From the NCBI GenBank assembly GCA_032622095.1, contig CP136064.1, forward strand, positions 181,384,011-181,448,010: a stretch of 64,000 bases of DNA. The letters are read 5' to 3'. Shown piece after piece: positions 3,367 to 31,858 of this stretch. Made by a program: the position numbers and the translations under genes. The notes under the pieces were generated by a model. That model worked only from the letters and a program-made list of their open reading frames with translations. It was not told the DNA's origin and did no database searches. The DNA is from Siphonodentalium dalli (Eukaryota > Mollusca > Scaphopoda > Gadilida > Siphonodentaliidae). The first letter of the stretch is position 1, and each line of letters opens with the position of its first letter.

Positions 3367-3450
3367 TTAGGAGAGTTGGTATGTGGTAAACATTTTACAA
3401 TACTGTACAATATTATATATACAAGACACAAGTTATATTGTTCGCTTGGT

Positions 3451-10957: not shown

Positions 10958-12300
10958 ATATTTTTTCATTTATAAGAAAGAATGACAAATGAGGAAAAGA
11001 CAAAATGCACTCACACGTTCGTTCCCTCAATCCCGCGGGTTTGGATGAGCGAAACTTTCTTACATGTGACATATAATTAGAAAATATTTAAATGCACACA
11101 TTGTGTTCGGGTAATTTTAACAAAGAGTGTTCAAGCTAAAAGTAAATTGAAGCTACGATGGTATATATTTTTCCGAAAATAGGCTTTCTTTTGCTACAAC
11201 AATGCTGATGTTTTCTTCAGAATAATTTTAGATTTCAATTTCAGCTACATTATTTGATGATATATAGTATTTAATGTTTGCATAATCAAAGTTCCAAACA
11301 CTATGTGTAGTTTTAATTATTTTACAGTTTGAATTTACCAAAAACTATTGTAGTTATTGTACTTGGTTCGACAGCACTCGGGGAAATACACAACGCTCTC
11401 TTTTTTTCGAACGGTGACAAAAGTTGTCATACACTTTATGCAAATGTTGTTATATTGACGTTCTCGGGAATATGATTGAAAAATAAAAATGATCGGTGTA
11501 TTGAAATTGTATAAATATTGTATAAATATCTGCCGCTCGGGTACCGGGTATTTAATTTATTTCGTGTGTCGTCCAGTCACTGTTATATTCTCATACCAGG
11601 GTGTACTTTGTGCCTGAAAATATCTGGTTTTCATTCACTATTATTTTAGTTGTAAGGCATTTTCGAAGTGTCAGCTACTGGTTATCGAATCCATAATTCA
11701 TAGTACATTTTGTGTTGTACCTCTCGCATTCATATCTAAATTTAAGATCACAAAAGAACGATCGGATGTTTGAACGTGGGGACAATCCCAGAAAATGTGA
11801 GAAATGGTTTCCTGTACATGTTAACAATGATTGCAAAGATTGTCGACTCGAAGGTTAGCCACCTTCAGAAATGTATTGGTACTAATAATTCGTGTGTTTA
11901 TTCTGAATTGGTGCCACTGTATATAATTTCGTATCGGTTGTCGTTTTAAAGGGCATGCTCAAATATTCTTCCTAATTTTATATTTTCTCGCATATTGCGG
12001 ATTCCCATTTTTGACATGCATTCGGCATAGTTTTCCCCATTTGCTAGAATTTTATAAAATAATTGTCACATAATTTTACATAATGAAGTATCGATGTAAT
12101 ATTGGGTAGACATGGGTAGGGTTACTAGCCTATACAGATTAAGGGTTGATTAAGAAAACTTGCCAATGACAAAATCTGACGCTTAATACAGTTGATTGTT
12201 ATGAAATCAACGCGGATGATGAAAGTTGCATAAAGTGTGCGTGGGGTATGGAATGTATTATCTGAATAGATCATTTATGAAATATATTCCGGCATCTCTC
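10958..12300 (-). mobile_element. Tx1/L1-like LINE, 3' part (unit 1)
   Basis: Minus-strand LINE sequence. Near 11.95-11.75 kb it reads QFRINTRIISTNTFLK and, downstream, TISHIFWDCPH, the C-terminal knuckle of Tx1/L1-type reverse transcriptases; the same region is present in the second LINE at 42.9-43.1 kb. The left edge near 12290 encodes GIYFINDLF, which directly follows the part found at 30545. The 3' end is a short A-run next to the target duplication GCAAAGCAGA (10943). The coding is interrupted by stops. Confidence 0.7.
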
Positions 12301-12586
12301 AGAAGAATAGCTGGCTCGTTAGTGTCACATCTAAAAATAGAATTTGTGGGTCTAAAATTGGTTGTACTAAAATATTCCCAAAATATCAAAAACCCCCAAA
12401 AAAATTCAAAACTTCCAAAATTTATTTTTTCCAAAAAATTTCAAAACTTCCAAAAAATTTCAAAATCCCCAAATTTCAAAAAAAGAAAAAATTTCAAAAC
12501 CCCCCAAAATTATTTCTCTAAAAAAAAAAGTTTAAATAAAAAATTTATAACGAGTTTTCGGTTTCTGATAATCTCGATATTAAAAA

Positions 12587-12763
12587 ATGTCGAATGTTAA
12601 ATTATTTGCGTGTAATATCTTTCGTTATTTTTTTTGTTCAAATATTTTTCATGAAATTATTAATCGATGTTTAGAAATAGCTTTATTGGACATTGTGACC
12701 ATCGATATGAATGCATACATTCCAGTGTTTATCGGACGCAGTTCATATAATTGGCATACCTGA
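12587..12763 (+). CDS. Small unknown frame near the element end (58 aa)
   Basis: An open frame of 58 codons starts MSNVKLFACNIF and ends SSYNWHT, with a hydrophobic middle (LEIALLDIVTIDM). It is present in all arms: 22434-22610 (plus) and 30095-30271 (minus) are complete. In the unit-1 right arm it has lost its start at the duplication join (remaining 20275-20435, minus). I recognise no family. It may be chance coding in AT-rich DNA or the start of the decayed gene that follows at 12815. Confidence 0.25.
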   Translation: MSNVKLFACNIFRYFFCSNIFHEIINRCLEIALLDIVTIDMNAYIPVFIGRSSYNWHT

Positions 12764-12814
12764 AAATAGACACCATTACTTTTACATAAATAATAAAGAG
12801 CGTTTATTCTTTAC

Positions 12815-13117
12815 ACTCTCTCTATCCCAGATGAAGTTATTGAGTATATGACAGGTGTGTATTATCGTGAATTATTGGAAGTATTGAGATGTACTATCTT
12901 GAATCACGAGTGGACGAAAAGGGTAATGTGAAATTACAACCCCCAGAATGAATTGTCATATTCGATGGAACATATTATGTACACGTGATCACACACGACA
13001 TTGTGGGTAACAATGTGTCTTTCACACCTTGCTTTACCAAATGAATTCTATTATATTCCCGTTCACAGTTATATGCCATTCAGAAAACATATCGATTTAA
13101 TGTCTGAGCAGAATTAG
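12815..13117 (+). pseudogene. Decayed coding remnant in each arm of the palindrome
   Basis: Reading three frames in turn gives protein-like text: IPDEVIEYMTGVYYREL up to about 12886, then from ATG at 12889 a 51-codon stretch with one internal TGA (12949-12951) including VIFDGTYYVHVITHD, then YIPVHSYMPFRKHIDL ending at TAG 13115-13117. The alternation of frames suggests a gene damaged by indels before the arms were duplicated. The same order occurs in the other arms. Its product is unknown; by position it could be a lost structural gene of the element, which is a guess. Confidence 0.35.
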
Positions 13118-13385
13118 TTGTTTAACGGGTTAGTATTAATTAAGGTTTATAAACTGTGTCATTGTTAACATTAACACGATAATTAGTTATCCAAAAAACA
13201 TGCATACATAATACGTCAGGTCGTGAGACACTCAATTATAGAAATTGCTTCGGTGTCATTGTTATAACAACATTACGTAATAACCACTTATCACTCCATT
13301 CACACTTACGCTCATTTTGTATACCAAAAATTTCAATATAATGAAGATGACGAAAAGTTACCTATAATTCTGCTGTGGTTAAGCC

Positions 13386-13387
<2 letters not shown>

Positions 13388-13430
<43 letters not shown>

Positions 13431-13500
13431 GTCACCAAGCGACATAACATCCTGCTTTGATGATCCAATGGCCAATGTCCATGAAGATTTTATTTCCGAT
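13388..13500 (+). pseudogene. Embedded fragment of the ATPase gene 5' part
   Basis: A CAA run followed by sequence encoding SPSDITSCFDDPMANVHEDF copies the polyQ/pre-ATPase region of the element gene and stops at TTTCCGATG, where the real gene continues with TTCAAGC. A block, AAAAGTTACCTATAATTC plus CTGCTGTGGTTAAGC, sits on both sides (about 13355-13388 and 13524-13558). The same block flanks the centre of the palindrome. The fragment recurs in every arm (near 19560-19650, 23230-23340, 29370-29470). Confidence 0.7.
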
Positions 13501-13743
13501 GCAAGTCATATTTCCGACTAACTCCTGAAAAGTTACCTATAATTCTGCTGTGGTTAAGCAGTCCATTATTTAGGGCATACCTGTATGTAGGCCTACCAGT
13601 GGATGAATAGTCTGCCGGAGAAGTACTGTGTAGACAGGTCTTGTCGGTAAGAGAGTCAGACGATAAGTGAAGGCTCGGCTATTAAAACATAGTAATGCGA
13701 TAGCGAACATCAAACGAGTCTGCGCACGCATATCTGTCAAAGG

Positions 13744-13834
13744 ATACAATGGCAGTCATTGGTCAATTTATCCCCGGTGTCAGCTCAGTACAATAGCAGT
13801 CATTGGTCAATTTATCCCCGGTGTCAGCTCAGTA
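13744..13834. repeat. Two tandem copies of a 44-bp repeat
   Basis: The sequence ACAATRGCAGTCATTGGTC plus the following 25 bases occurs twice in a row, ending CAGCTCAGTACA. It is repeated in inverted orientation in the other arm (19205-19300) and again in unit 2. No function is evident. Confidence 0.75.
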
Positions 13835-13872
13835 CACAATCGGCACGAAGCCGGAGGTCATAATTACTCTTA

Positions 13873-14300
13873 CGAATGAAGAGCGTTGAACATATACGAA
13901 ATTATTACACGAATGAACTGAAATTTATATTTCACGTCTTACCAACAACAGATACAGACATAGTCATAGTGTTATACTATCTTACATGTACCCATGCTAT
14001 GACATCATTCGAAGGGGCAATACACTCAAGGAGTTAAAGTGACACGAAACAAGGGACGTGATGTAATATTGGTGTATGAATCTTAAAGGAACACAAGACA
14101 CTCTAAAGGGACACTCATTATGAAGGAATGTTAACAATACAAGCGCACGAATGAAGAGCGTTGAACATATACGAAATTACTACACGAATGAACTGAAATT
14201 TATATTTCACATCTTACCAACAACAGATACAGACATAGTCATAGTGTTATATTATCTTACATGTACCCATGCTATGACATACTTAAAGGGGGATAATGCA
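13873..14300. repeat. Diverged tandem repeat of about 278 bp downstream of the ATPase gene
   Basis: The block starting GAATGAAGAGCGTTGAACAT at 13875 starts again at 14152 and stays alike for about 130 bp, through ATAGTCATAGTGTTATA and CATGCTATGACAT, before diverging. Both blocks lie between the ATPase 3' end and the inner repeats. The inverted equivalents are at about 18745-19170, with further copies in unit 2. Confidence 0.75.
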
Positions 14301-14448
14301 CACACAGTGTGTGGAATGTTAAAGTGACACGAGGTAAGGGACGTTATGTAATATTGGTGTGTGAATATTAAAGGAGCATTCTCGCTATACAAACCCCCCT
14401 CCCCACTTATAGATATATAACGAAGACGAGAATAACATGTTGATGAAG

Positions 14449-14459
14449 TTTATTGAAAT
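14449..14459 (-). terminator. Poly-A signal directly after the ATPase stop codon
   Basis: On the minus strand AATAAA begins six bases after the stop codon. The same signal is at 18596-18601 in copy B and at the equivalent place in copies C and D. It implies a very short 3' untranslated region. Confidence 0.6.
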
Positions 14460-15999
14460 TTAATCATTGTCTGAATCTTCGACCGTTAGATTTACTTCTA
14501 AGAGTTTCTTGAATTTTCTCATCGCTTCATCTGCAGCCCATTCATTATTATATCCGCGTTTGGTCAGTTTGACCATTTTCTTCATGATCGTGTTATGTAT
14601 GGGTGATGTTTTCAATCGATACTGGTATTCTATTAATCGTCTATAACTTTTGAGAAACAGAACAAACTCTGTGTCGATGGTATCCTCTTTTCCCGACATG
14701 CTCTCATCTCCCGAAATGCTCTCTTCTTCTTTCACATCATTGGTGACGCGTTTCATCATACTTTTGAATGTGTCCATCTCGTTGACACATCGCGCAGCTT
14801 TCTTAAGACCGAATACCGTTCTACTACCGACGACATTACCATCTTTTGAATCTGATAGCGTTCCTCGTTCATCTTCATCTGTATCTTCTCCGAAGAGAGT
14901 TGTTTTTGTCTCGGACATAGCTCCGTGTTCATCCGGGTCCTCAGTTAATTTTCGTTTTAACTTATTTTCTTGACACCAGTTTTTTACGTGTCTCTGAACA
15001 TCATAATGATCTGCGAACAAAAGCCCGCATTCATTACAAGGGTACGACATGTCTTCTCGAATGTCTATACGTTTCTTCTTATTAATTTCATCGAGCTCAC
15101 CAGGTGGCCGTATGTCGTTAGTATAGTCATTATGTTGACCCTGGGGCACAATATAATTATATGTTATGCCCTTCTGTTGACCAGGGAGTTCTCTGTCATC
15201 GTATTTCATCACATTCTGTTGACCCTGGGTCTCAGTGTCTTTTGTATGTTTTTTCATCACATTCTGTTCATCTGGGTGTTCTCTGTCTTTTTGGAGATTA
15301 TATTTCATGCCATTCCATTCACCCCTATGTTGGTTCGTGTCCTCTTTTAGTACATTCTGTCGCAGACGTAATGTGTCCGGTGTTGCGGCTTTTAAATCCA
15401 CCAGTAGGTAACCGTACGGTTCACTCGTCGCTTCCGAAAACTCTCGAACCATACGCTGAGGACATTCAGGATACATCTGTCTTGATAATGTTGAAATTAA
15501 TCCCTTGTCGATTGGGTTATTGAACAATACCAAATATTGACAATTTCGTCGTTGCGTTGGATCTTTGTTGTAGTAGAAATTCTGGTTCAAACTTATCAAA
15601 GATAAGTTCAAATGGTGACTTCCTTCGGAATGCAAATCATTAACTCTCTGGTCTTTTGATGAAGTTTGCATCAAGTCATCGAGTATAACTAGATTTTTAT
15701 ACCGGGGGTTGATAAGCGAATCCAAGTTTGCTGGTATTCCTCGTATAAAGTTGACCTGAGGGGTGACGGTATACTTTAATTCGTCATATAGGGGCTGCCA
15801 ATATTTATAAAACCATATTATTCTGTCAGGTGAGGGTGATATTTTTGAGGCAGACTTTTGTAGTAAGGTTTTCACGAAGTATGTCTTACCACAAGATGTC
15901 GGTCCACTTACACATGCCGTGAATGGATGCTTGAAAATAAAATCTTCATGGACATTGGCCATTGGATCATCAAAGCAGGATGTTATGTCGCTTGGTGGC

Positions 16000-16030
<31 letters not shown>

Positions 16031-16044
16031 GGGGGTGATGATAC

Positions 16045-16083
<39 letters not shown>

Positions 16084-16208
16084 GGCTGATGATACTGTTG
16101 TTGTTGTTGTTGTTGTTGTTCTGAAGGCGTGTGTTTAACTTTGATATGACGCTTCAAACTATCTTGCCAAGCATAGACACTTAAGCACTCTTCACATTGA
16201 TACTTCAT
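14460..16208 (-). CDS. Zinc finger/polyQ/packaging-type ATPase (copy A, 582 aa)
   Basis: The intact frame starts at ATG 16208 and is the left-arm gene of unit 1. Order: an N-terminal C2H2 finger (Cys5, Cys8, His21, His26); a polyQ region broken by YHQP and YHHP; a P-loop ATPase with Walker A GPTSCGKT near residue 102, Walker B NLVILDDLMQ about 75 residues on, and SLISLNQNFYYN then YLVLFNNP after it; a charged region with imperfect QQN-MKY repeats; a C2HC-type finger CNECGLLF..H..C; and a Lys-rich C-terminus ending VEDSDND. The ATPase resembles the FtsK/HerA (A32-like) DNA-packaging ATPases of virus-like elements such as Polintons. Function as a packaging motor is inferred. This copy has Val in QQNVMKYDD, as does the other left-arm copy. 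Confidence 0.85.
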
Positions 16209-16856
16209 TTAACTAGTTCAGGCTGTCGTTCACAACGTCTCTTAGTGTTGTTTGTACTGGATACAAATTTATCACATTAGCTACAATACAACCTACCTAT
16301 CCAAATGTCAATGCAATTATGAGTGATTTCAATATGAACACTCTATTATATAGATATGTGTAACCTGGTGACTGACATGATGATACAGTTATGCACTAAA
16401 TAATGGACTGCTTAACCACAGCAGAATTATAGGTAACTTTTCAGGAGTTAGTCGGAAATATGGCTTGTTGCCATTCATCGGAAAGCTCTCGCCTCAGGCA
16501 GTGGCGGCGCCGGCGGCGGCGGCGGCGGCACCGCCGCCGCAGTAAAATACCGCAATGCCGCCGCCGCCTGCGGCGAGAGCTTTCCGATGAATGGCAACAA
16601 GCCATATTTCCGACTAACTCCTGAAAAGTTACCTATAATTCTGCTGTGGTTAAGCAGTCCATTATTTAGTGCATAACTGTATCATCATGTCAGTCACCAG
16701 GTTACACATATCTATATAATAGAGTGTTCATATTGAAATCACTCATAATTGCATTGACATTTGGATAGGTAGGTTGTATTGTAGCTAATGTGATAAATTT
16801 GTATCCAGTACAAACAACACTAAGAGACGTTGTGAACGACAGCCTGAACTAGTTAA
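16209..16856. promoter_or_regulatory. Palindrome centre: divergent 5' regions with GC-rich spacer
   Basis: The two ATPase genes point away from each other and share this 648-bp centre. The arms are near-perfect reverse complements up to 16493 and from 16572. The spacer is GGC/GCC-rich with a self-complementary core (GGCGGTGCC-type) and a short AT island GTAAAATAC. Any promoter must lie within about 320 bp of each start, so the two genes would be co-regulated. No clear TATA box was seen beyond AT-rich stretches near 16350 and 16715. Confidence 0.5.
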
Positions 16857-16978
16857 ATGAAGTATCAATGTGAAGAGTGCTTAAGTGTCTATGCTTGGCA
16901 AGATAGTTTGAAGCGTCATATCAAAGTTAAACACACGCCTTCAGAACAACAACAACAACAACAACAGTATCATCAGCC

Positions 16979-17011
<33 letters not shown>

Positions 17012-18590
17012 GTATCATCACCCCCAACAACAACAACAACAACAACAACAGCCACCAAGCGACATAACATCCTGCTTTGATGATCCAATGGCCAATGTCC
17101 ATGAAGATTTTATTTTCAAGCATCCATTCACGGCATGTGTAAGTGGACCGACATCTTGTGGTAAGACATACTTCGTGAAAACCTTACTACAAAAGTCTGC
17201 CTCAAAAATATCACCCTCACCTGACAGAATAATATGGTTTTATAAATATTGGCAGCCCCTATATGACGAATTAAAGTATACCGTCACCCCTCAGGTCAAC
17301 TTTATACGAGGAATACCAGCAAACTTGGATTCGCTTATCAACCCCCGGTATAAAAATCTAGTTATACTCGATGACTTGATGCAAACTTCATCAAAAGACC
17401 AGAGAGTTAATGATTTGCATTCCGAAGGAAGTCACCATTTGAACTTATCTTTGATAAGTTTGAACCAGAATTTCTACTACAACAAAGATCCAACGCAACG
17501 ACGAAATTGTCAATATTTGGTATTGTTCAATAACCCAATCGACAAGGGATTAATTTCAACATTATCAAGACAGATGTATCCTGAATGTCCTCAGCGTATG
17601 GTTCGAGAGTTTTCGGAAGCGACGAGTGAACCGTACGGTTACCTACTGGTGGATTTAAAAGCCGCAACACCGGACACATTACGTCTGCGACAGAATGTAC
17701 TAAAAGAGGACACGAACCAACATAGGGGTGAATGGAATGGCATGAAATATAATCTCCAAAAAGACAGAGAACACCCAGATGAACAGAATGTGATGAAAAA
17801 ACATACAAAAGACACTGAGACCCAGGGTCAACAGAATGCGATGAAATACGATGACAGAGAACTCCCTGGTCAACAGAAGGGCATAACATATAATTATATT
17901 GTGCCCCAGGGTCAACATAATGACTATACTAACGACATACGGCCACCTGGTGAGCTCGATGAAATTAATAAGAAGAAACGTATAGACATTCGAGAAGACA
18001 TGTCGTACCCTTGTAATGAATGCGGGCTTTTGTTCGCAGATCATTATGATGTTCAGAGACACGTAAAAAACTGGTGTCAAGAAAATAAGTTAAAACGAAA
18101 ATTAACTGAGGACCCGGATGAACACGGAGCTATGTCCGAGACAAAAACAACTCTCTTCGGAGAAGATACAGATGAAGATGAACGAGGAACGCTATCAGAT
18201 TCAAAAGATGGTAATGTCGTCGGTAGTAGAACGGTATTCGGTCTTAAGAAAGCTGCGCGATGTGTCAACGAGATGGACACATTCAAAAGTATGATGAAAC
18301 GCGTCACCAATGATGTGAAAGAAGAAGAGAGCATTTCGGGAGATGAGAGCATGTCGGGAAAAGAGGATACCATCGACACAGAGTTTGTTCTGTTTCTCAA
18401 AAGTTATAGACGATTAATAGAATACCAGTATCGATTGAAAACATCACCCATACATAACACGATCATGAAGAAAATGGTCAAACTGACCAAACGCGGATAT
18501 AATAATGAATGGGCTGCAGATGAAGCGATGAGAAAATTCAAGAAACTCTTAGAAGTAAATCTAACGGTCGAAGATTCAGACAATGATTAA
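16857..18590 (+). CDS. Zinc finger/polyQ/packaging-type ATPase (copy B, 577 aa)
   Basis: This is the right-arm gene of unit 1, intact, starting ATG in TTAAATGAAG. Residue positions in this copy: finger Cys5, Cys8, His21, His26; polyQ about 31-75; Walker A Gly97-Thr104 (GPTSCGKT); Walker B with Asp172-Asp173; second finger Cys386, Cys389, His402, Cys407; acidic end. It differs from the left-arm genes by Ala in QQNAMKYDD and by fewer glutamines. AATAAA follows at 18596. The same protein is predicted from both arms, so the palindrome is diploid for this gene. The fusion of ATPase and finger domains in one frame may be peculiar to this element; I recall the two as separate genes elsewhere. Confidence 0.85.
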
Positions 18591-19619
18591 ATTTCAATAA
18601 ACTTCATCAACATGTTATTCTCGTCTTCGTTATATATCTATAAGTGGGGAGGGGGGTTTGTATAGCGAGAATGCTCCTTTAATATTCACACACCAATATT
18701 ACATAACGTCCCTTACCTCGTGTCACTTTAACATTCCACACACCGTGTGTGCATTATCCCCCTTTAAGTATGTCATAGCATGGGTACATGTAAGATAATA
18801 TAACACTATGACTATGTCTGTATCTGTTGTTGGTAAGATGTGAAATATAAATTTCAGTTCATTCGTGTAGTAATTTCGTATATGTTCAACGCTCTTCATT
18901 CGTGCGCTTGTATTGTTAACATTCCTTCATAATGAGTGTCCCTTTAGAGTGTCTTGTGTTCCTTTAAGATTCATACACCAATATTACATCACGTCCCTTG
19001 TTTCGTGTCACTTTAACTCCTTGAGTGTATTGCCCCTTCGAATGATGTCATAGCATGGGTACATGTAAGATAGTATAACACTATGACTATGTCTGTATCT
19101 GTTGTTGGTAAGACGTGAAATATAAATTTCAGTTCATTCGTGTAATAATTTCGTATATGTTCAACGCTCTTCATTCGTAAGAGTAATTATGACCTCCGGC
19201 TTCGTGCCGATTGTGTACTGAGCTGACACCGGGGATAAATTGACCAATGACTGCTATTGTACTGAGCTGACACCGGGGATAAATTGACCAATGACTGCCA
19301 TTGTATCCTTTGACAGATATGCGTGCGCAGACTCGTTTGATGTTCGCTATCGCATTACTATGTTTTAATAGCCGAGCCTTCACTTCTCGTCTGACTCTCT
19401 TACCGACAAGACCTGTCTACACAGTACTTCTCCGGCAGACTATTCATCCACTGGTAGGCCTACATACAGGTATGCCCTAAATAATGGACTGCTTAACCAC
19501 AGCAGAATTATAGGTAACTTTTCAGGAGTTAGTCGGAAATATGACTTGCATCGGAAATAAAATCTTCATGGACATTGGCCATTGGACCATCAAAGCAGGA
19601 TGTTATGTCGCTTGGTGAC

Positions 19620-19652
<33 letters not shown>

Positions 19653-20432
19653 GGCTTAACCACAGCAGAATTATAGGTAACTTTTCGTCATCTTCATTAT
19701 ATTGAAATTTTTGGTATACAAAATGAGCGTAAGTGTGAATGGAGTGATAAGTGGTTATTACGTAATGTTGTTATAACAATGACACCGAAGCAATTTCTAT
19801 AATTGAGTGTCTCACGACCTGACGTATTATGTATGCATGTTTTTTGGATAACTAATTATCGTGTTAATGTTAACAATGACACAGTTTATAAACCTTAATT
19901 AATACTAACCCGTTAAACAACTAATTCTGCTCAGACATTAAATCGATATGTTTTCTGAATGGCATATAACTGTGAACGGGAATATAATAGAATTCATTTG
20001 GTAAAGCAAGGTGTGAAAGACACATTGTTACCCACAATGTCGTGTGTGATCACGTGTACATAATATGTTCCATCGAATATGACAATTCATTCTGGGGGTT
20101 GTAATTTCACATTACCCTTTTCGTCCACTCGTGATTCAAGATAGTACATCTCAATACTTCCAATAATTCACGATAATACACACCTGTCATATACTCAATA
20201 ACTTCATCTGGGATAGAGAGAGTGTAAAGAATAAACGCTCTTTATTATTTATGTAAAAGTAATGGTGTCTATTTTCAGGTATGCCAATTATATGAACTGC
20301 GTCCGATAAACACTGGAATGTATGCATTCATATCGATGGTCACAATGTCCAATAAAGCTATTTCTAAACATCGATTAATAATTTCATGAAAAATATTTGA
20401 ACAAAAAAAATAACGAAAGATATTACACGCAA

Positions 20433-20805
20433 ATACTTTGTTTTGGGTCTCTGAATATAAAGATGGCGCAGGGACAGGCACAGGGCCAGGGCTATGTGTT
20501 TTCCTGCTTTGATTTTCTCAACTCACACTTGCCCATGATTATCAGCTTCCACAAAACACTGATCAAGACAACTTCCGTCGATGTATTTGATAATTTCAAA
20601 AGACCGTGTGACGTTCTCCTATTCTGAATTGTATAGTGTGTCCGCATGCAACTGGATGCATTTGACATAAAGCGGCATGTCGAGTGATATTACAGTTCTT
20701 CACCTGTCATCACCGCACAGCTGATTTTCTGGGCTAGTTGGAGAGCTGAATATAGATTTGACAAATCAGTCGGAGCGCCGCGTATCAATGGCAAAGCAGA
20801 AATAT
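20433..20805 (-). pseudogene. Gene A fragment, duplicated with unit 2
   Basis: Copy of 10585-10957, encoding the LIRGAPTDLSN to LSLRHLYIQR part of gene A on the minus strand. It is cut at 20433 by the duplication join, so it is a dead fragment. Its presence proves that the duplicated segment began inside gene A. Confidence 0.7.
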
Positions 20806-22147
20806 ATATTTTTCATTTATAAGAAAGAATGACAAATGAGGAAAAGACAAAATGCACTCACACGTTCGTTCCCTCAATCCCGCGGGTTTGGATGAGCGAA
20901 ACTTTCTTACATGTGACATATAATTAGAAAATATTTAAATGCACACATTGTGTTCGGGTAATTTTAACAAAGAGTGTTCAAGCTAAAAGTAAATTGAAGC
21001 TACGATGGTATATATTTTTCCGAAAATAGGCTTTCTTTTGCTACAACAATGCTGATGTTTTCTTCAGAATAATTTTAGATTTCAATTTCAGCTACATTAT
21101 TTGATGATATATAGTATTTAATGTTTGCATAATCAAAGTTCCAAACACTATGTGTAGTTTTAATTATTTTACAGTTTGAATTTACCAAAAACTATTGTAG
21201 TTATTGTACTTGGTTCGACAGCACTCGGGGAAATACACAACGCTCTCTTTTTTTCGAACGGTGACAAAAGTTGTCATACACTTTATGCAAATGTTGTTAT
21301 ATTGACGTTCTCGGGAATATGATTGAAAAATAAAAATGATCGGTGTATTGAAATTGTATAAATATTGTATAAATATCTGCCGCTCGGGTACCGGGTATTT
21401 AATTTATTTCGTGTGTCGTCCAGTCACTGTTATATTCTCATACCAGGGTGTACTTTGTGCCTGAAAATATCTGGTTTTCATTCACTATTATTTTAGTTGT
21501 AAGGCATTTTCGAAGTGTCAGCTACTGGTTATCGAATCCATAATTCATAGTACATTTTGTGTTGTACCTCTCGCATTCATACCTAAATTTAAGATCACAA
21601 AAGAACGATCGGATGTTTGAACGTGGGGACAATCCCAGAAAATGTGAGAAATGGTTTCCTGTACATGTTAACAATGATTGCAAAGATTGTCGACTCGAAG
21701 GTTAGCCACCTTCAGAAATGTATTGGTACTAATAATTCGTGTGTTTATTCTGAATTGGTGCCACTGTATATAATTTCGTATCGGTTGTCGTTTTAAAGGG
21801 CATGCTCAAATATTCTTCCTAATTTTATATTTTCTCGCATATTGCGGATTCCCATTTTTGACATGCATTCGGCATAGTTTTCCCCATTTGCTAGAATTTT
21901 ATAAAATAATTGTCACATAATTTTACATAATGAAGTATCGATGTAATATTGGGTAGACATGGGTAGGGTTACTAGCCTATACAGATTAAGGGTTGATTAA
22001 GAAAACTTGCCAATGACAAAATCTGACGCTTAATAAAGTTGATTGTTATGAAATCAACGCGGATGATGAAAGTTGCATAAAGTGTGCGTGGGGTATGGAA
22101 TGTATTATCTGAATAGATAATTTATGAAATATATTCCGGCATCTCTC
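20806..22147 (-). mobile_element. Tx1/L1-like LINE, 3' part (unit 2 copy)
   Basis: Duplicate of 10958-12300, ending at the TCTCTC (22142-22147) in front of the palindrome. It differs by scattered single bases (for example near 21583, 22036 and 22119) and one T in the terminal T-run. It is preceded at 20433-20805 by a second copy of the gene A fragment and the target duplication (20791-20805). Confidence 0.75.
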
Positions 22148-23232
22148 AGAAGAATAGCTGGCTCGTTAGTGTCACATCTAAAAATAGAATTTGTGGGTCT
22201 AAAATTGGTTGTACTAAAATATTCCCAAAATATCAAAAACCCCCAAAAAAATTCAAAACTTCCAAAATTTATTTTTTCCAAAAAATTTCAAAACTTCCAA
22301 AAAATTTCAAAATTCCCAAATTTCAAAAAAAGAAAAAATTTCAAAACCCCCCAAAATTATTTCTCTAAAAAAAAAAGTTTAAATAAAAAATTTATAACGA
22401 GTTTTCGGTTTCTGATAATCTCGATATTAAAAAATGTCGAATGTTAAATTATTTGCGTGTAATATCTTTCGTTATTTTTTTTGTTCAAATATTTTTCATG
22501 AAATTATTAATCGATGTTTAGAAATAGCTTTATTGGACATTGTGACCATCGATATGAATGCATACATTCCAGTGTTTATCGGACGCAGTTCATATAATTG
22601 GCATACCTGAAAATAGACACCATTACTTTTACATAAATAATAAAGAGCGTTTATTCTTTACACTCTCTCTATCCCAGATGAAGTTATTGAGTATATGACA
22701 GGTGTGTATTATCGTGAATTATTGGAAGTATTGAGATGTACTATCTTGAATCACGAGTGGACGAAAAGGGTAATGTGAAATTACAACCCCCAGAATGAAT
22801 TGTCATATTCGATGGAACATATTATGTACACGTGATCACACACGACATTGTGGGTAACAATGTGTCTTTCACACCTTGCTTTACCAAATGAATTCTATTA
22901 TATTCCCGTTCACAGTTATATGCCATTCAGAAAACATATCGATTTAATGTCTGAGCAGAATTAGTTGTTTAACGGGTTAGTATTAATTAAGGTTTATAAA
23001 CTGTGTCATTGTTAACATTAACACGATAATTAGTTATCCAAAAAACATGCATACATAATACGTCAGGTCGTGAGACACTCAATTATAGAAATTGCTTCGG
23101 TGTCATTGTTATAACAACATTACGTAATAACCACTTATCACTCCATTCACACTTACGCTCATTTTGTATACCAAAAATTTCAATATAATGAAGATGACGA
23201 AAAGTTACCTATAATTCTGCTGTGGTTAAGCC

Positions 23233-23268
<36 letters not shown>

Positions 23269-24297
23269 GTCACCAAGCGACATAACATCCTGCTTTGATG
23301 ATCCAATGGCCAATGTCCATGAAGATTTTATTTCCGATGCAAGTCATATTTCCGACTAACTCCTGAAAAGTTACCTATAATTCTGCTGTGGTTAAGCAGT
23401 CCATTATTTAGGGCATACCTGTATGTAGGCCTACCAGTGGATGAATAGTCTGCCGGAGAAGTACTGTGTAGACAGGTCTTGTCGGTAAGAGAGTCAGACG
23501 ATAAGTGAAGGCTCGGCTATTAAAACATAGTAATGCGATAGCGAACATCAAACGAGTCTGCGCACGCATATCTGTCAAAGGATACAATGGCAGTCATTGG
23601 TCAATTTATCCCCGGTGTCAGCTCAGTACAATAGCAGTCATTGGTCAATTTATCCCCGGTGTCAGCTCAGTACACAATCGGCACGAAGCCGGAGGTCATA
23701 ATTACTCTTACGAATGAAGAGCGTTGAACATATACGAAATTATTACACGAATGAACTGAAATTTATATTTCACGTCTTACCAACAACAGATACAGACATA
23801 GTCATAGTGTTATACTATCTTACATGTACCCATGCTATGACATCATTCGAAGGGGCAATACACTCAAGGAGTTAAAGTGACACGAAACAAGGGACGTGAT
23901 GTAATATTGGTGTATGAATCTTAAAGGAACACAAGACACTCTAAAGGGACACTCATTATGAAGGAATGTTAACAATACAAGCGCACGAATGAAGAGCGTT
24001 GAACATATACGAAATTACTACACGAATGAACTGAAATTTATATTTCACATCTTACCAACAACAGATACAGACATAGTCATAGTGTTATATTATCTTACAT
24101 GTACCCATGCTATGACATACTTAAAGGGGGATAATGCACACACGGTGTGTGGAATGTTAAAGTGACACGAGGTAAGGGACGTTATGTAATATTGGTGTGT
24201 GAATATTAAAGGAGCATTCTCGCTATACAAACCCCCCTCCCCACTTATAGATATATAACGAAGACGAGAATAACATGTTGATGAAGTTTATTGAAAT

Positions 24298-26025
24298 TTA
24301 ATCATTGTCTGAATCTTCGACCGTTAGATTTACTTCTAAGAGTTTCTTGAATTTTCTCATCGCTTCATCTGCAGCCCATTCATTATTATATCCGCGTTTG
24401 GTCAGTTTGACCATTTTCTTCATGATCGTGTTATGTATGGGTGATGTTTTCAATCGATACTGGTATTCTATTAATCGTCTATAACTTTTGAGAAACAGAA
24501 CAAACTCTGTGTCGATGGTATCCTCTTTTCCCGACATGCTCTCATCTCCCGAAATGCTCTCTTCTTCTTTCACATCATTGGTGACGCGTTTCATCATACT
24601 TTTGAATGTGTCCATCTCGTTGACACATCGCGCAGCTTTCTTAAGACCGAATACCGTTCTACTACCGACGACATTACCATCTTTTGAATCTGATAGCGTT
24701 CCTCGTTCATCTTCATCTGTATCTTCTCCGAAGAGAGTTGTTTTTGTCTCGGACATAGCTCCGTGTTCATCCGGGTCCTCAGTTAATTTTCGTTTTAACT
24801 TATTTTCTTGACACCAGTTTTTTACGTGTCTCTGAACATCATAATGATCTGCGAACAAAAGCCCGCATTCATTACAAGGGTACGACATGTCTTCTCGAAT
24901 GTCTATACGTTTCTTCTTATTAATTTCATCGAGCTCACCAGGTGGCCGTATGTCGTTAGTATAGTCATTATGTTGACCCTGGGGCACAATATAATTATAT
25001 GTTATGCCCTTCTGTTGACCAGGGAGTTCTCTGTCATCGTATTTCATCACATTCTGTTGACCCTGGGTCTCAGTGTCTTTTGTATGTTTTTTCATCACAT
25101 TCTGTTCATCTGGGTGTTCTCTGTCTTTTTGGAGATTATATTTCATGCCATTCCATTCACCCCTATGTTGGTTCGTGTCCTCTTTTAGTACATTCTGTCG
25201 CAGACGTAATGTGTCCGGTGTTGCGGCTTTTAAATCCACCAGTAGGTAACCGTACGGTTCACTCGTCGCTTCCGAAAACTCTCGAACCATACGCTGAGGA
25301 CATTCAGGATACATCTGTCTTGATAATGTTGAAATTAATCCCTTGTCGATTGGGTTATTGAACAATACCAAATATTGACAATTTCGTCGTTGCGTTGGAT
25401 CTTTGTTGTAGTAGAAATTCTGGTTCAAACTTATCAAAGATAAGTTCAAATGGTGACTTCCTTCGGAATGCAAATCATTAACTCTCTGGTCTTTTGATGA
25501 AGTTTGCATCAAGTCATCGAGTATAACTAGATTTTTATACCGGGGGTTGATAAGCGAATCCAAGTTTGCTGGTATTCCTCGTATAAAGTTGACCTGAGGG
25601 GTGACGGTATACTTTAATTCGTCATATAGGGGCTGCCAATATTTATAAAACCATATTATTCTGTCAGGTGAGGGTGATATTTTTGAGGCAGACTTTTGTA
25701 GTAAGGTTTTCACGAAGTATGTCTTACCACAAGATGTCGGTCCACTTACACATGCCGTGAATGGATGCTTGAAAATAAAATCTTCATGGACATTGGCCAT
25801 TGGATCATCAAAGCAGGATGTTATGTCGCTTGGTGGCTGTTGTTGTTGTTGTTGTTGTTGTTGGGGGTGATGATACTGTTGTTGTTGTTGTTGTTGTTGT
25901 TGTTGTGGCTGATGATACTGTTGTTGTTGTTGTTGTTCTGAAGGCGTGTGTTTAACTTTGATATGACGCTTCAAACTATCTTGCCAAGCATAGACACTTA
26001 AGCACTCTTCACATTGATACTTCAT
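24298..26025 (-). CDS. Zinc finger/polyQ/packaging-type ATPase (copy C, 575 aa)
   Basis: This is the left-arm gene of the complete palindrome, intact from ATG at 26025. Domains are as in copies A and B: C2H2 finger, polyQ, P-loop ATPase, C2HC finger, acidic end. It is seven residues shorter than copy A, all in the CAA repeats, which points to replication slippage after the duplication. It carries Val in QQNVMKYDD, shared with copy A and not with the right-arm genes. Either the gene is young or its frame is under selection; the copies are too alike to tell. Confidence 0.85.
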   Translation of the reverse strand: MKYQCEECLSVYAWQDSLKRHIKVKHTPSEQQQQQQYHQPQQQQQQQQQQYHHPQQQQQQQQQPPSDITSCFDDPMANVHEDFIFKHPFTACVSGPTSCGKTYFVKTLLQKSASKISPSPDRIIWFYKYWQPLYDELKYTVTPQVNFIRGIPANLDSLINPRYKNLVILDDLMQTSSKDQRVNDLHSEGSHHLNLSLISLNQNFYYNKDPTQRRNCQYLVLFNNPIDKGLISTLSRQMYPECPQRMVREFSEATSEPYGYLLVDLKAATPDTLRLRQNVLKEDTNQHRGEWNGMKYNLQKDREHPDEQNVMKKHTKDTETQGQQNVMKYDDRELPGQQKGITYNYIVPQGQHNDYTNDIRPPGELDEINKKKRIDIREDMSYPCNECGLLFADHYDVQRHVKNWCQENKLKRKLTEDPDEHGAMSETKTTLFGEDTDEDERGTLSDSKDGNVVGSRTVFGLKKAARCVNEMDTFKSMMKRVTNDVKEEESISGDESMSGKEDTIDTEFVLFLKSYRRLIEYQYRLKTSPIHNTIMKKMVKLTKRGYNNEWAADEAMRKFKKLLEVNLTVEDSDND

Positions 26026-26670
26026 TTAACTAGTTCAGGCTGTCGTTCACAACGTCTCTTAGTGTTGTTTGTACTGGATACAAATTTATCACATTAGCTA
26101 CAATACAACCTACCTATCCAAATGTCAATGCAATTATGAGTGATTTCAATATGAACACTCTATTATATAGATATGTGTAACCTGGTGACTGACATGATGA
26201 TACAGTTATGCACTAAATAATGGACTGCTTAACCACAGCAGAATTATAGGTAACTTTTCAGGAGTTAGTCGGAAATATGGCTTGTTGCCATTCATCGGAA
26301 AGCTCTCGCCTCAGGCGGTGGCGGCGCCGGCGGCGGCGGCGGCGGCACCGCCGCCGCAGTAAAATACCACAATGCCGCCGCCTGCGGCGAGAGCTTTCCG
26401 ATGAATGGCAACAAGCCATATTTCCGACTAACTCCTGAAAAGTTACCTATAATTCTGCTGTGGTTAAGCAGTCCATTATTTAGTGCATAACTGTATCATC
26501 ATGTCAGTCACCAGGTTACACATATCTATATAATAGAGTGTTCATATTGAAATCACTCATAATTGCATTGACATTTGGATAGGTAGGTTGTATTGTAGCT
26601 AATGTGATAAATTTGTATCCAGTACAAACAACACTAAGAGACGTTGTGAACGACAGCCTGAACTAGTTAA
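26026..26670. promoter_or_regulatory. Palindrome centre of the complete element
   Basis: This is the divergent 5' region between copies C and D, matching the unit-1 centre. The spacer 26311-26385 is GGC/CCG-rich and three bases shorter than in unit 1. Single-strand folding could form a very stable stem from the arms capped by this spacer. Confidence 0.5.
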
Positions 26671-26758
26671 ATAAAGTATCAATGTGAAGAGTGCTTAAGT
26701 GTCTATGCTTGGCAAGATAGTTTGAAGCGTCATATCAAAGTTAAACACACGCCTTCAG

Positions 26759-26789
<31 letters not shown>

Positions 26790-26801
26790 GTATCATCAGC
26801 C

Positions 26802-26834
<33 letters not shown>

Positions 26835-28407
26835 GTATCATCACCCCCAACAACAACAACAACAACAGCCACCAAGCGACATAACATCCTGCTTTGATGA
26901 TCCAATGGCCAATGTCCATGAAGATTTTATTTTCAAGCATCCATTCACGGCATGTGTAAGTGGACCGACATCTTGTGGTAAGACATACTTCGTGAAAACC
27001 TTACTACAAAAGTCTGCCTCAAAAATATCACCCTCACCTGACAGAATAATATGGTTTTATAAATATTGGCAGCCCCTATATGACGAATTAAAGTATACCG
27101 TCACCCCTCAGGTCAACTTTATACGAGGAATACCAGCAAACTTGGATTCGCTTATCAACCCCCGGTATAAAAATCTAGTTATACTCGATGACTTGATGCA
27201 AACTTCATCAAAAGACCAGAGAGTTAATGATTTGCATTCCGAAGGAAGTCACCATTTGAACTTATCTTTGATAAGTTTGAACCAGAATTTCTACTACAAC
27301 AAAGATCCAACGCAACGACGAAATTGTCAATATTTGGTATTGTTCAATAACCCAATCGACAAGGGATTAATTTCAACATTATCAAGACAGATGTATCCTG
27401 AATGTCCTCAGCGTATGGTTCGAGAGTTTTCGGAAGCGACGAGTGAACCGTACGGTTACCTACTGGTGGATTTAAAAGCCGCAACACCGGACACATTACG
27501 TCTGCGACAGAATGTACTAAAAGAGGACACGAACCAACATAGGGGTGAATGGAATGGCATGAAATATAATCTCCAAAAAGACAGAGAACACCCAGATGAA
27601 CAGAATGTGATGAAAAAACATACAAAAGACACTGAGACCCAGGGTCAACAGAATGCGATGAAATACGATGACAGAGAACTCCCTGGTCAACAGAAGGGCA
27701 TAACATATAATTATATTGTGCCCCAGGGTCAACATAATGACTATACTAACGACATACGGCCACCTGGTGAGCTCGATGAAATTAATAAGAAGAAACGTAT
27801 AGACATTCGAGAAGACATGTCGTACCCTTGTAATGAATGCGGGCTTTTGTTCGCAGATCATTATGATGTTCAGAGACACGTAAAAAACTGGTGTCAAGAA
27901 AATAAGTTAAAACGAAAATTAACTGAGGACCCGGATGAACACGGAGCTATGTCCGAGACAAAAACAACTCTCTTCGGAGAAGATACAGATGAAGATGAAC
28001 GAGGAACGCTATCAGATTCAAAAGATGGTAATGTCGTCGGTAGTAGAACGGTATTCGGTCTTAAGAAAGCTGCGCGATGTGTCAACGAGATGGACACATT
28101 CAAAAGTATGATGAAACGCGTCACCAATGATGTGAAAGAAGAAGAGAGCATTTCGGGAGATGAGAGCATGTCGGGAAAAGAGGATACCATCGACACAGAG
28201 TTTGTTCTGTTTCTCAAAAGTTATAGACGATTAATAGAATACCAGTATCGATTGAAAACATCACCCATACATAACACGATCATGAAGAAAATGGTCAAAC
28301 TGACCAAACGCGGATATAATAATGAATGGGCTGCAGATGAAGCGATGAGAAAATTCAAGAAACTCTTAGAAGTAAATCTAACGGTCGAAGATTCAGACAA
28401 TGATTAA
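26671..28407 (+). pseudogene. ATPase gene copy D, start codon changed to ATA
   Basis: This is the right-arm gene of the complete palindrome. The frame is open throughout, but the codon matching the ATG of copy B reads ATA (26671-26673), so the normal start is lost. The first finger is therefore probably not made unless a non-ATG codon is used; the next in-frame ATG lies after the polyQ region, at MANVHEDF, just before the ATPase. All ATPase motifs, the second finger and the stop are intact. It shares Ala in QQNAMKYDD with copy B. Confidence 0.75.
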
Positions 28408-29436
28408 ATTTCAATAAACTTCATCAACATGTTATTCTCGTCTTCGTTATATATCTATAAGTGGGGAGGGGGGTTTGTATAGCGAGAATGCTCCTTTAAT
28501 ATTCACACACCAATATTACATAACGTCCCTTACCTCGTGTCACTTTAACATTCCACACACCGTGTGTGCATTATCCCCCTTTAAGTATGTCATAGCATGG
28601 GTACATGTAAGATAATATAACACTATGACTATGTCTGTATCTGTTGTTGGTAAGATGTGAAATATAAATTTCAGTTCATTCGTGTAGTAATTTCGTATAT
28701 GTTCAACGCTCTTCATTCGTGCGCTTGTATTGTTAACATTCCTTCATAATGAGTGTCCCTTTAGAGTGTCTTGTGTTCCTTTAAGATTCATACACCAATA
28801 TTACATCACGTCCCTTGTTTCGTGTAACTTTAACTCCTTGAGTGTATTGCCCCTTCGAATGATGTCATAGCATGGGTACATGTAAGATAGTATAACACTA
28901 TGACTATGTCTGTATCTGTTGTTGGTAAGACGTGAAATATAAATTTCAGTTCATTCGTGTAATAATTTCGTATATGTTCAACGCTCTTCATTCGTAAGAG
29001 TAATTATGACCTCCGGCTTCGTGCCGATTGTGTACTGAGCTGACACCGGGGATAAATTGACCAATGACTGCTATTGTACTGAGCTGACACCGGGGATAAA
29101 TTGACCAATGACTGCCATTGTATCCTTTGACAGATATGCGTGCGCAGACTCGTTTGATGTTCGCTATCGCATTACTATGTTTTAATAGCCGAGCCTTCAC
29201 TTCTCGTCTGACTCTCTTACCGACAAGACCTGTCTACACAGTACTTCTCCGGCAGACTATTCATCCACTGGTAGGCCTACATACAGGTATGCCCTAAATA
29301 ATGGACTGCTTAACCACAGCAGAATTATAGGTAACTTTTCAGGAGTTAGTCGGAAATATGACTTGCATCGGAAATAAAATCTTCATGGACATTGGCCATT
29401 GGATCATCAAAGCAGGATGTTATGTCACTTGGTGAC

Positions 29437-29472
<36 letters not shown>

Positions 29473-30544
29473 GGCTTAACCACAGCAGAATTATAGGTAA
29501 CTTTTCGTCATCTTCATTATATTGAAATTTTTGGTATACAAAATGAGCGTAAGTGTGAATGGAGTGATAAGTGGTTATTACGTAATGTTGTTATAACAAT
29601 GACACCGAAGCAATTTCTATAATTGAGTGTCTCACGACCTGACGTATTATGTATGCATGTTTTTTGGATAACTAATTATCGTGTTAATGTTAACAATGAC
29701 ACAGTTTATAAACCTTAATTAATACTAACCCGTTAAACAACTAATTCTGCTCAGACATTAAATCGATATGTTTTCTGAATGGCATATAACTGTGAACGGG
29801 AATATAATAGAATTCATTTGGTAAAGCAAGGTGTGAAAGACACATTGTTACCCACAATGTCGTGTGTGATCACGTGTACATAATATGTTCCATCGAATAT
29901 GACAATTCATTCTGGGGGTTGTAATTTCACATTACCCTTTTCGTCCACTCGTGATTCAAGATAGTACATCTCAATACTTCCAATAATTCACGATAATACA
30001 CACCTGTCATATACTCAATAACTTCATCTGGGATAGAGAGAGTGTAAAGAATAAACGCTCTTTATTATTTATGTAAAAGTAATGGTGTCTATTTTCAGGT
30101 ATGCCAATTATATGAACTGCGTCCGATAAACACTGGAATGTATGCATTCATACCGATGGTCACAATGTCCAATAAAGCTATTTCTAAACATCGATTAATA
30201 ATTTCATGAAAAATATTTGAACAAAAAAAATAACGAAAGATATTACACGCAAATAATTTAACATTCGACATTTTTTAATATCGAGATTATCAGAAACCGA
30301 AAACTCGTTATAAATTTTTTATTTAAACTTTTTTTTTTAGAGAAATAATTTTGGGGGGTTTTGAAATTTTTTCTTTTTTTGAAATTTGGGGATTTTGAAA
30401 TTTTTTGGAAAAAATAAATTTTGGAAGTTTTGAATTTTTTTTGGGGTTTTTGATATTTTGGGAATATTTTAGTACAACCAATTTTAGACCCACAAATTCT
30501 ATTTTTAGATGTGACACTAACGAGCCAGCTATTCTTCTTCTCTC

Positions 30545-31858
30545 CACGATTTAAAGTTGATCGGCGAACCTACGATTTTTATTTTCGAATTATTCCATAC
30601 AGTTGAGGCCATAATAGTATTATTTGAATTATTTAATCGCATAAATTTACACCATGCGGCGAATACATCTCACCAGAATGTATTTGCGAACTTGTCTGTT
30701 TGCTTTACAATATAATTTACGTGATAAGTGAGAATATTTTAGGAAAGGGTTGGCATTGCATAGTGAAGGCCATTTCGATTGTTTGCAAACCAAGCGTCGT
30801 ATCCAGGTAATTTTCATGGCGCTATCAAAGTTTTCGACATTAATCATGTTCAACCCTCCGTGCATATGTTCGGCACATAATTGTTTTCTTTTTATTCTAT
30901 CGCGTTTGGAATTCCAAAGAAATTATAGACTGGTATTTAGGGTTTTCATAAAGTCTGTATCTGGACTTGAGTGAGTTACAAATAGGTGTGTCAATTTTGG
31001 TAAGATAAGGGATTCGACAACTGTTATTCTAACTAAAGGGATCAGGAGTCTGTTTCAAAACATTTTGTGATCTTTTCTATATCTTCGAGTTTGTAAGTGT
31101 GTGTAGTTTTATTCATGTTTGTTAAATTAGTGTCGAAATGTATCCCTAGCAAATTAAAAGTGTTTACAGTTGACATGTTTAATTCCCTAAGAACTTGTCT
31201 TATTTTAGAATGTGAACCTATCCCTATCCATGCTGCTTGACATTTTTCAGGATTTATGCGCAGACCAGATACCCGAGCAAATTCTTCAAGCCTTAGTGTT
31301 AAGTACGATTCGCGTAGACAATTTTCAGAACCATCAAGAATGAGCGTCGTGTCGTCCGCATATTGTGTTATTTTGTATTCTGAACCACCGAGGAATATCC
31401 CTTTAATTGTATTGTTTTGGCGTATCGTAAGCGCCAAAACTTCGGCACAGAGGAGAAAGATATACGGGGATATTGGGTCACCCTGGCGGCAGCCTCTAAC
31501 TAACATGAAGCTCTGAGAAAGTAGACAACGAATAGAAAGTCACATCTCTATAAGTGGTGTTCGGGATTGTAGCAGTTGTATCCCTCAGTTGTTTGTATGC
31601 TTGCTGGTGTCCTGTTTCCTGTTTGAATGATACCGCATTTTGCAGCTCTGAAAAAAATGACCATTAATCAGAATATATGAGCTGGCATTCTCATATAAAA
31701 TTGATAGCAATTTCTTTATAGAATCTCCAAATTAAAAAGGTCAAGACATTTTCTTATAAATGACCAGGAAACAGTGGCATATGCTTTTCAAAATCAATAA
31801 GAAGTAGTAGGCCAGATTTATTTTCTTGTTTTCTCCTGTGAATTATGTCATATATTAG
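30545..31858 (-). mobile_element. Tx1/L1-like LINE, 5'-truncated reverse transcriptase part
   Basis: The coding runs on the minus strand: DIIHRRKQENKSGLLLLIDFEK (palm motif A; 31855-31780), then after a 127-bp insert RGCRQGDPISPYIFLL and QYADDTTLILDG (YADD active site, 31500-31320), LRINPEKCQAAWIG, GGLNMINVENFDSAMKITWI (30860-30800), and VWNNSKIKIVG just before the palindrome. The 5' end at 31858 abuts GCAAAGCAGACATAT (31859-31873), which matches GCAAAGCAGAAATAT at 10943-10957. That is a 15-bp target duplication with one change, so this copy was inserted already truncated. Frame breaks make it inactive. Confidence 0.8.
31517..31643 (-). pseudogene. 127-bp gene A fragment inserted in the LINE
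   Basis: This stretch matches 32003-32066 plus 33599-33655 of gene A, which are separated there by a later transposon. It sits between NGHFFQ-coding and RGCRQGDP-coding LINE sequence. AGCTCTGA occurs on both sides (31509-31516 and 31644-31651), as expected for a target duplication. It has no poly-A and no terminal repeats. Confidence 0.65.

Follow-up and report, generated by a model that had tools for sequence, protein, structure and literature searches.

Polintons, or Mavericks, are marked by 6-bp target-site duplications and by ends that begin with AG, and the case for their protein-primed replication rests largely on analogy with adenoviruses and phages. Among linear protein-primed viruses of the adenovirus type, snap-back or palindromic defective genomes are known; hairpin-closed ends are copied round in the rolling-hairpin replicons of the parvovirus type; and Foldback (FB) elements and miniature inverted-repeat transposable elements (MITEs) are non-autonomous and consist largely of inverted repeat. 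According to a review (PMC6431247), Polintons are typically 15–25 kb long and carry genes for polymerase B, integrase, protease and ATPase. The element considered here occupies positions 22148–30538 of a 64,000-nucleotide stretch of the scaphopod mollusc Siphonodentalium dalli (assembly GCA_032622095.1, contig CP136064.1, positions 181,384,011 to 181,448,010; this whole stretch is called the window below), and it is an inverted repeat from end to end. With a probability of roughly 0.6, it is a member of a large group of whole-element palindromes, non-autonomous satellites of a Polinton in the same genome, that replicate through a one-arm hairpin (snap-back) and are mobilised in trans.

Aligned to its own reverse complement, the element matches over its full length (98.5% over 8,437 columns, with 37 mismatches and 92 gap columns). 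A first-pass annotation of the stretch had described a palindrome with perfect arms; the inverted repeat does span the whole element, with arms of about 4.16 and 4.15 kb and a 75-nt spacer (Table 1), but the arms are not perfect, since 10 of 4,148 aligned bases differ between them with the centre excluded, and 16 of 4,170 when the whole halves are aligned to each other. Both termini start with AGAAGAATAGCTGGCTCGTT, the end sequence is AGAAGAATAG, and TCTCTC flanks the element on either side. Of the Polinton features tested, a 6-bp target-site duplication, AG-starting terminal inverted repeats and an A32-type ATPase were found, and the ends are common to autonomous copies of the same genome, which places the element among non-autonomous Polinton derivatives. 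The annotation was also right that an ATPase gene is all that the element keeps: it is the only type of long frame, present once per arm (575 aa on the left; 578 codons without an ATG on the right) and reading outward from the centre. Among the open reading frames there is no other long frame that could encode polymerase B, and none that by its length is of rve integrase or chromodomain type (the domain scan covered the ATPase frame alone); no protease or capsid frame was seen in the palindrome, and an Rfam scan of the element returned nothing at gathering score. The likeness to Polintons thus lies in the 6-bp duplications, the long AG-starting terminal inverted repeats, the packaging-type ATPase and repeats held in common with elements that carry polymerase B and integrase, whereas the other Polinton frames are not seen and the inverted repeat is the whole element instead of its ends only. 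FB elements and MITEs resemble the palindromes in being non-autonomous and made mostly of inverted repeat, but the palindromes have long arms of unique sequence that carry a gene, and they show the ends and the 6-bp duplications of Polintons.

The element is far from alone. Across the 2.23-Gb assembly (nine contigs), the end pattern occurs in 1,039 exact copies, 531 forward and 508 reverse, and the reversed pattern used as a control has no match genome-wide. The first 100 of these places, all on contig C1, comprise 44 adjacent pairs (88 places) and 12 unpaired places, and the pairs fall into 34 short elements (3.1–11.1 kb) and 10 long ones (15.6–17.4 kb), with none in between. Six short elements, the first five in the list and one of 4.7 kb, were compared at mirrored positions inside the terminal repeat, and all six gave inverted copies at 94–100%; two long elements serving as controls had no inverted match past their terminal repeats. 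Because the exact ends are so many, most pairs on C1 are short and every short one tested is palindromic, the palindromic family can be extrapolated to hundreds of copies, and the notion of a lone defective genome does not hold. On the same contig, at G000:C1:159746518-159783947, a tandem array carries six forward ends about 5.4 kb apart followed by one reverse end, all with the same variable end boxes (see below).

A second sample was drawn by similarity to the window's end (40 matches scored of 1,904 candidates), from which 20 stretches (L031–L050) representing 17 elements were fetched, a sample chosen, that is, by likeness to that end. Eleven of the 17 are palindromic (L031, L033–L038, L039/40, L046, L047 and L050), L041/42, L043/44 and, within its 10 kb, L048 are not, and L032, L045 and L049 are undecided. 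Twelve elements, the window's included, are complete with both ends (10 short, 2 long), and in 11 of them the flanking 6-bp duplications match and abut the ends exactly; in L043/44 the duplication is present as well, but a single additional base stands at its left end. Each of the 12 duplications has a different sequence, so that the duplication and Polinton-type ends reported for the window recur, and the further palindromic insertions with other 6-bp duplications that the annotation had predicted exist. These data bear on whether fold-back reads could have doubled a single arm during assembly. Fold-back artefacts do occur in long-read data, and the tandem duplication seen in the window could be an assembly duplicate, but 12 complete elements each lie between their own duplication in non-palindromic flanks, point changes separate the arms, and palindromy is missing from the long Polintons that have these ends. 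The artefact was rejected on the differing flanks and duplications and is barely credible.

Full-length relatives with the same ends and with polymerase B and integrase, also foreseen by the annotation, are present in the genome. In L041/L042, single frames encode a chromodomain together with an rve match below cut-off, DNA_pol_B_2 (E 4.5e-46) and Peptidase_C5; the Chromo match of L041 lies above and its rve match (26.8 bits) below the Pfam cut-off, and DNA_pol_B_2 was found in L042. The pair also encodes a 225-aa ATPase with AAA and Pox_A32 matches below cut-off. Polymerase B matches (69 scored of 1,596 candidates) fall inside six of the 10 long C1 elements and none of the 34 short ones, and many of the frames among those scored are open and about 952 aa long. 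With polymerase B, integrase and protease, the long elements examined qualify as Polintons. Over its outer ~1,030 bp the window arm is 88–95% identical to L041–L044 and L048, and the arm matches L041/42 and L043/44 in their terminal repeats only (1,047 and 1,115 bp), at both ends and nothing further in, which is at odds with the expectation of relatives that would have the outer 4 kb in common with it at just one of their ends. The L041 and window ATPases are 31% identical over 206 aa, and the bivalve relatives described below are 61–64% identical. Because of these identities and of the restriction of the common sequence to the outer ~1,030 bp, the palindrome borrows or tracks the ends of the long elements and is no fold-back of those seen, and its gene appears to come from another Polinton lineage. 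A second polymerase B family, with open frames of 1,098–1,330 aa, is found at G000:C1:137917395, C4:45381862, C2:38052324 and elsewhere; it is possibly such a lineage and a candidate source of the zinc-finger ATPase.

The annotation had read the element as a snap-back defective genome of a full-length relative, with the arm representing one end of that relative. Common ends, duplications and the palindromic form all suit such an origin, and a different Polinton lineage, given that a second polymerase B family exists, could be the source; however, the long elements fetched have just their outer ~1.0–1.1 kb in common with the arm, the ATPase of one of them is distant, and the palindrome interior recurs in many elements. 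Direct derivation of this kind is very improbable, and what survives of the proposal is a snap-back-like logic, visible in the concerted arms, rather than a fold-back of that relative. With the snap-back genomes of adenovirus-type viruses the palindromes share the inverted-dimer form and, presumably, helper dependence and the folding back of a displaced strand. They differ from these in being integrated, in apparently hundreds of copies and several architectures, with a common centre module and an ATPase of their own, and in that the arm is not derived from one end of the helper elements compared.

The Pox_A32 match of the window ATPase scores 25.5 bits against a cut-off of 22.8, and both of its C2H2-like fingers score below Pfam cut-offs. 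A protein search with it gave 251 matches, of which 120 were listed; among those listed are gene models of Pecten, Mizuhopecten, Solemya, Pinctada, Mytilus, Ruditapes, Mercenaria and Mya, and bivalve Polinton-type ATPases identical at 61–64% over about one third of the protein. Three Mya models and a Mytilus model have the homologue fused to rve or chromodomain parts, and a further Mytilus model has it fused to an adenovirus-type protease (Peptidase_C5); the fused models may be annotation artefacts, yet they put the ATPase beside Polinton genes. Other relatives go under the names of bacterial metagenome-assembled genomes (Sedimenticola, Thiodiazotropha) and are probably host DNA within clam-symbiont assemblies. 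Searches of viral and prokaryote collections returned no relatives of the ATPase or of the end sequence. A sequence search of the PDB gave nothing at E ≤ 0.001 and nine weak matches, mostly zinc fingers; the predicted structure has a mean pLDDT of 64, Foldseek found nothing in the PDB at E ≤ 0.001, and the fold was not used as evidence. When the genome was searched with the protein, 76 full matches were scored of 6,811 candidates, 68 of them free of internal stops, a figure that applies to the best-scored matches. Fifty form 25 divergent pairs spaced 630–1,084 bp apart and 26 stand singly in the scored set; apart from the window's tandem copies, there are no further close pairs among the 76. 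To judge from its family, the ATPase may serve the satellite in, for example, packaging.

At its extremity, as seen in 35 distinct ends, the terminal repeat has two variable boxes (positions 11, 12, 14 and 21–25) amid near-invariant stretches. These boxes, here called tags, are equal at both ends in 43 of the 44 C1 pairs, where shuffling would give 1.4, and 37 tag combinations occur among the 44 pairs; the window's combination is found at six ends (exact matches only). Further in, repeat positions 448–1000 differ on average by 0.25% within an element and by 5.23% between elements, the own opposite end is the nearest in 28 of 28 cases, and a tree of these positions joins the two ends of the same element; at positions 1–447 the figures are 0.76% and 3.75%, with the own opposite end nearest in 19 of 24. 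The interiors of the arms are concerted in part, with 0.42% within and 1.52% between in one interior segment, 0.44% and 4.23% in the interior segment 1570–1990, and 0.28% and 0.95% in the ATPase segment. When the halves are aligned, they diverge by 0.26–0.85% in seven of eight elements; the eighth, L035, was excluded from this figure owing to big one-arm indels that misalign its halves (14.9%), and L039/40, L046, L047 and L050 lie outside the comparison. Deletions, replacements and expanded repeats set the interiors of different palindromes apart, and in seven of 10 (L033, L034, L036, L037, L038, L046 and L050) the order of blocks, judged by eye, is equal in both arms; L047, whose right arm was read in part, stands outside that judgement. 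Because the arms usually agree better within than between elements and the tags match in nearly all pairs, the arms seem to have been re-templated from each other.

The sequence comparisons also suggest a traffic in ends. Over window arm positions 1201–3450, L033 and L039/40 are 97–100% identical to the window element, while over positions 451–1050 they are only 79–97% and 85–95% identical to it, and there the two ends of each are identical; other palindromes are more mixed in their likeness to the window arm. The tree of the terminal repeat has a well supported split with one long Polinton on each side. Since the interiors are so alike while the outer repeats diverge, and since the repeats split into two groups, terminal repeats have thus apparently been swapped between elements, and in the elements compared the swaps show up at both ends.

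Two other histories could make arms alike. In the first, all copies descend from a single inverted dimer and their arms are alike through youth, with no homogenisation. The low divergence of the aligned halves is in its favour, as are the difference of just 0.95% between ATPase genes of different elements and the segment at the centre end, where differences within elements (0.74%) are about those between them (0.66%). Youth predicts, however, arms at least as different as the elements, and at positions 448–1000 and 1570–1990 the differences between elements are many times those within, which makes this history improbable. The second, in which ordinary two-ended non-autonomous Polintons had their arms kept alike afterwards by gene conversion within the chromosome, with no hairpin replicon, is a possibility to be taken seriously, though unlikely. 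Long inverted repeats elsewhere undergo gene conversion, and the terminal repeats of two long, non-palindromic elements are homogenised too (0.38–1.44% between ends), so that homogenised ends alone are no proof of whole-arm copying. Large differences between arms are nevertheless not readily erased by conversion in the chromosome: lopsided copies persist, among them L031, with 1.6 kb between its arms, L035 and L039/40. The repeat swaps at both ends and the recurrence of the same interior architecture at several loci also look as if they had been set before integration.

Several of these observations weigh against the hairpin-replicating satellite as well. The homogenised ends of the long elements do so, and the lopsided palindromes indicate that not every copy is freshly re-templated. 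Support from the interiors is uneven, the own opposite arm being the nearest in 11 of 17, 9 of 14 and 9 of 12 copies in the interior, 1570–1990 and ATPase segments, respectively, and the centre-end segment is without signal (own arm nearest in 1 of 10). The ATPase copies (16 arm copies or parts, with three codon variants with multiple changes excluded) have a pN/pS of 0.86, an uninformative value that hardly points to selection acting on it. The window's second tag, AGTGT, is present at 12 ends, none of them in a 16-kb pair (exact matches only), so that a tag-matched helper is absent; this cuts against a strictly end-specific helper, and leaves either neutral tag boxes or a matching helper no longer present in the assembly. 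Finally, we infer the hairpin step itself from integrated copies, the form in which the family is known here.

The place where such a hairpin would turn is marked in the palindromes themselves. Their centre module, (GGC)n with GCAGTAAAATACCGCAATGC, is present in 10 of the 12 palindromes looked at, whereas seven other stretches all lack it. Besides the turn, it marks the divergent region between the two genes wherever a palindrome bears the ATPase. Genome-wide the centre motif has 785 matches at ≤1 mismatch, and its reversed control none. Exact copies occur in 18 of the 34 short C1 elements and none of the 10 long ones, and in 13 of those 18 the motif lies ≤2% from the midpoint; up to 205.6 Mb on C1, 38 exact motifs are listed, and 27 of these are inside listed pairs. 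As a single strand the window's centre folds strongly (−74.1 kcal/mol, z −14), as any palindrome would. Near the middle of long Polintons (L042:350-550 and L043:8600-8800) there is a GC-rich repetitive block with a sequence unlike the centre module.

In the favoured reading of hairpin-replicating satellites, the terminal protein, polymerase B and integrase of Polintons would act in trans on the satellite ends. The protein-primed polymerase would be primed at AGAAGAATAG, where a start by jumping back, like that of adenoviruses, would fit the terminal AGAAGA repeat. Strand displacement from one end would release a free single strand, which could fold back on itself at the GC-rich centre and so form a hairpin of one arm, open at one end. 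This hairpin would be a complete replicon: copying round its loop would remake both arms from one, so that each cycle would restore the palindrome and double the ATPase gene, and any change in one arm, be it a point change, a deletion or a terminal repeat gained by recombination, would be copied into the other. Integration by the Polinton integrase would leave the 6-bp duplication. Palindromy would then have been born once or a few times and inherited ever since, and not made anew at the window locus. The parvovirus-type rolling hairpin offers a parallel, as a hairpin-closed end copied round would likewise remake both arms, but the turn proposed here lies midway along the integrated element, and a terminal protein is the presumed primer. 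It is tempting, if doubtful, to go further and to see in the palindromes a lineage of one-ended hairpin replicons that are parasitic on Polintons and are kept palindromic by the monomer hairpin, with the end boxes as specificity tags in an arms race in which a Polinton alters its end and the satellites follow by taking up new repeats that are copied to both ends.

At the window locus, the element is part of a tandem duplication of 9.85 kb (10585–20439 aligned to 20433–30259, 99.3%) that brings in a second palindrome, on which the annotation was silent. The duplication may be real or an assembly duplicate; the junction of its units falls within the right arm. Between the two copies, 2 of 4,150 positions differ in the left arms and 7 of 3,873 in the right arms, a count that comes in part from misaligned columns at the cut end and that is as high as between left and right arms (6–10). 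Sequence of a long interspersed nuclear element (LINE) flanks the element on both sides, and when the element and one TCTCTC are deleted in silico, a 55-codon open stretch spans the join. The annotation had the LINE frame closing precisely without the insertion; the flanks and the short stretch agree with it, but no open stretch of at least 60 codons crosses the join and the host LINE is otherwise decayed. Inside each arm, a 232-bp block stands in direct repeat (window 23710–24216 and its mirror, 87% identity), and both arms of stretch L038 have further copies of it. Elsewhere in the window, 10254–10674 and 40537–40942 form an inverted pair (90% identity) whose overlapping open frames have no assignment, and 32433–33083 is a tandem repeat with units of 61–62 and 125–129 bp.

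Table 1. Features of the palindromic element and its surroundings, in window positions
Feature	Position	Strand	Remarks
Tandem duplication, first unit (left LINE flank and palindrome)	10585..20432		Second unit 20433–30259
Second palindrome copy	12301..20439		About 280 bp cut off right end; product of the tandem duplication
Target-site duplication, left copy	22142..22147		TCTCTC, 6 bp
Left arm	22148..26310	+	4,163 bp
Outer ~1,030 bp, left arm	22148..23177	+	Terminal repeat in common with 16-kb Polintons of the same genome
ATPase gene, left copy	24298..26025	-	575 aa; C2H2-like finger, poly-Q, Pox_A32-like ATPase, second C2H2-like finger
Spacer at the turn	26311..26385		75 nt; GC-rich (GGC)n module; bounded by innermost exact 24-mers
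Centre motif	26354..26375	+	Here GCAGTAAAATACCACAATGC; central in 10 of the 12 palindromes inspected
Right arm	26386..30538	-	4,153 bp
ATPase gene, right copy	26671..28407	+	578-codon open frame; first codon ATA in place of ATG
Outer ~1,030 bp, right arm	29509..30538	-	Terminal repeat
Target-site duplication, right copy	30539..30544		TCTCTC, 6 bp
Reverse-transcriptase frame of the decayed host LINE	31042..31539	-	Insertion target of the element

A survey of bivalve transposons mentions Mavericks, and the string 'palindrom' is absent from its main text (PMC10294476). The titles and abstract openings searched, a scope outside which most subscription papers lie, contained nothing on palindromic Polintons, and the hairpin mode of replication to which the family points was not encountered there either. 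Re-templated arms in many integrated palindromes would amount to a genomic record of the fold-back step and to a natural Polinton satellite system. Palindromes of 8 kb are usually held to be fragile in chromosomes; this family shows that they can grow into common repeats, a point of relevance to genome stability and to assembly.

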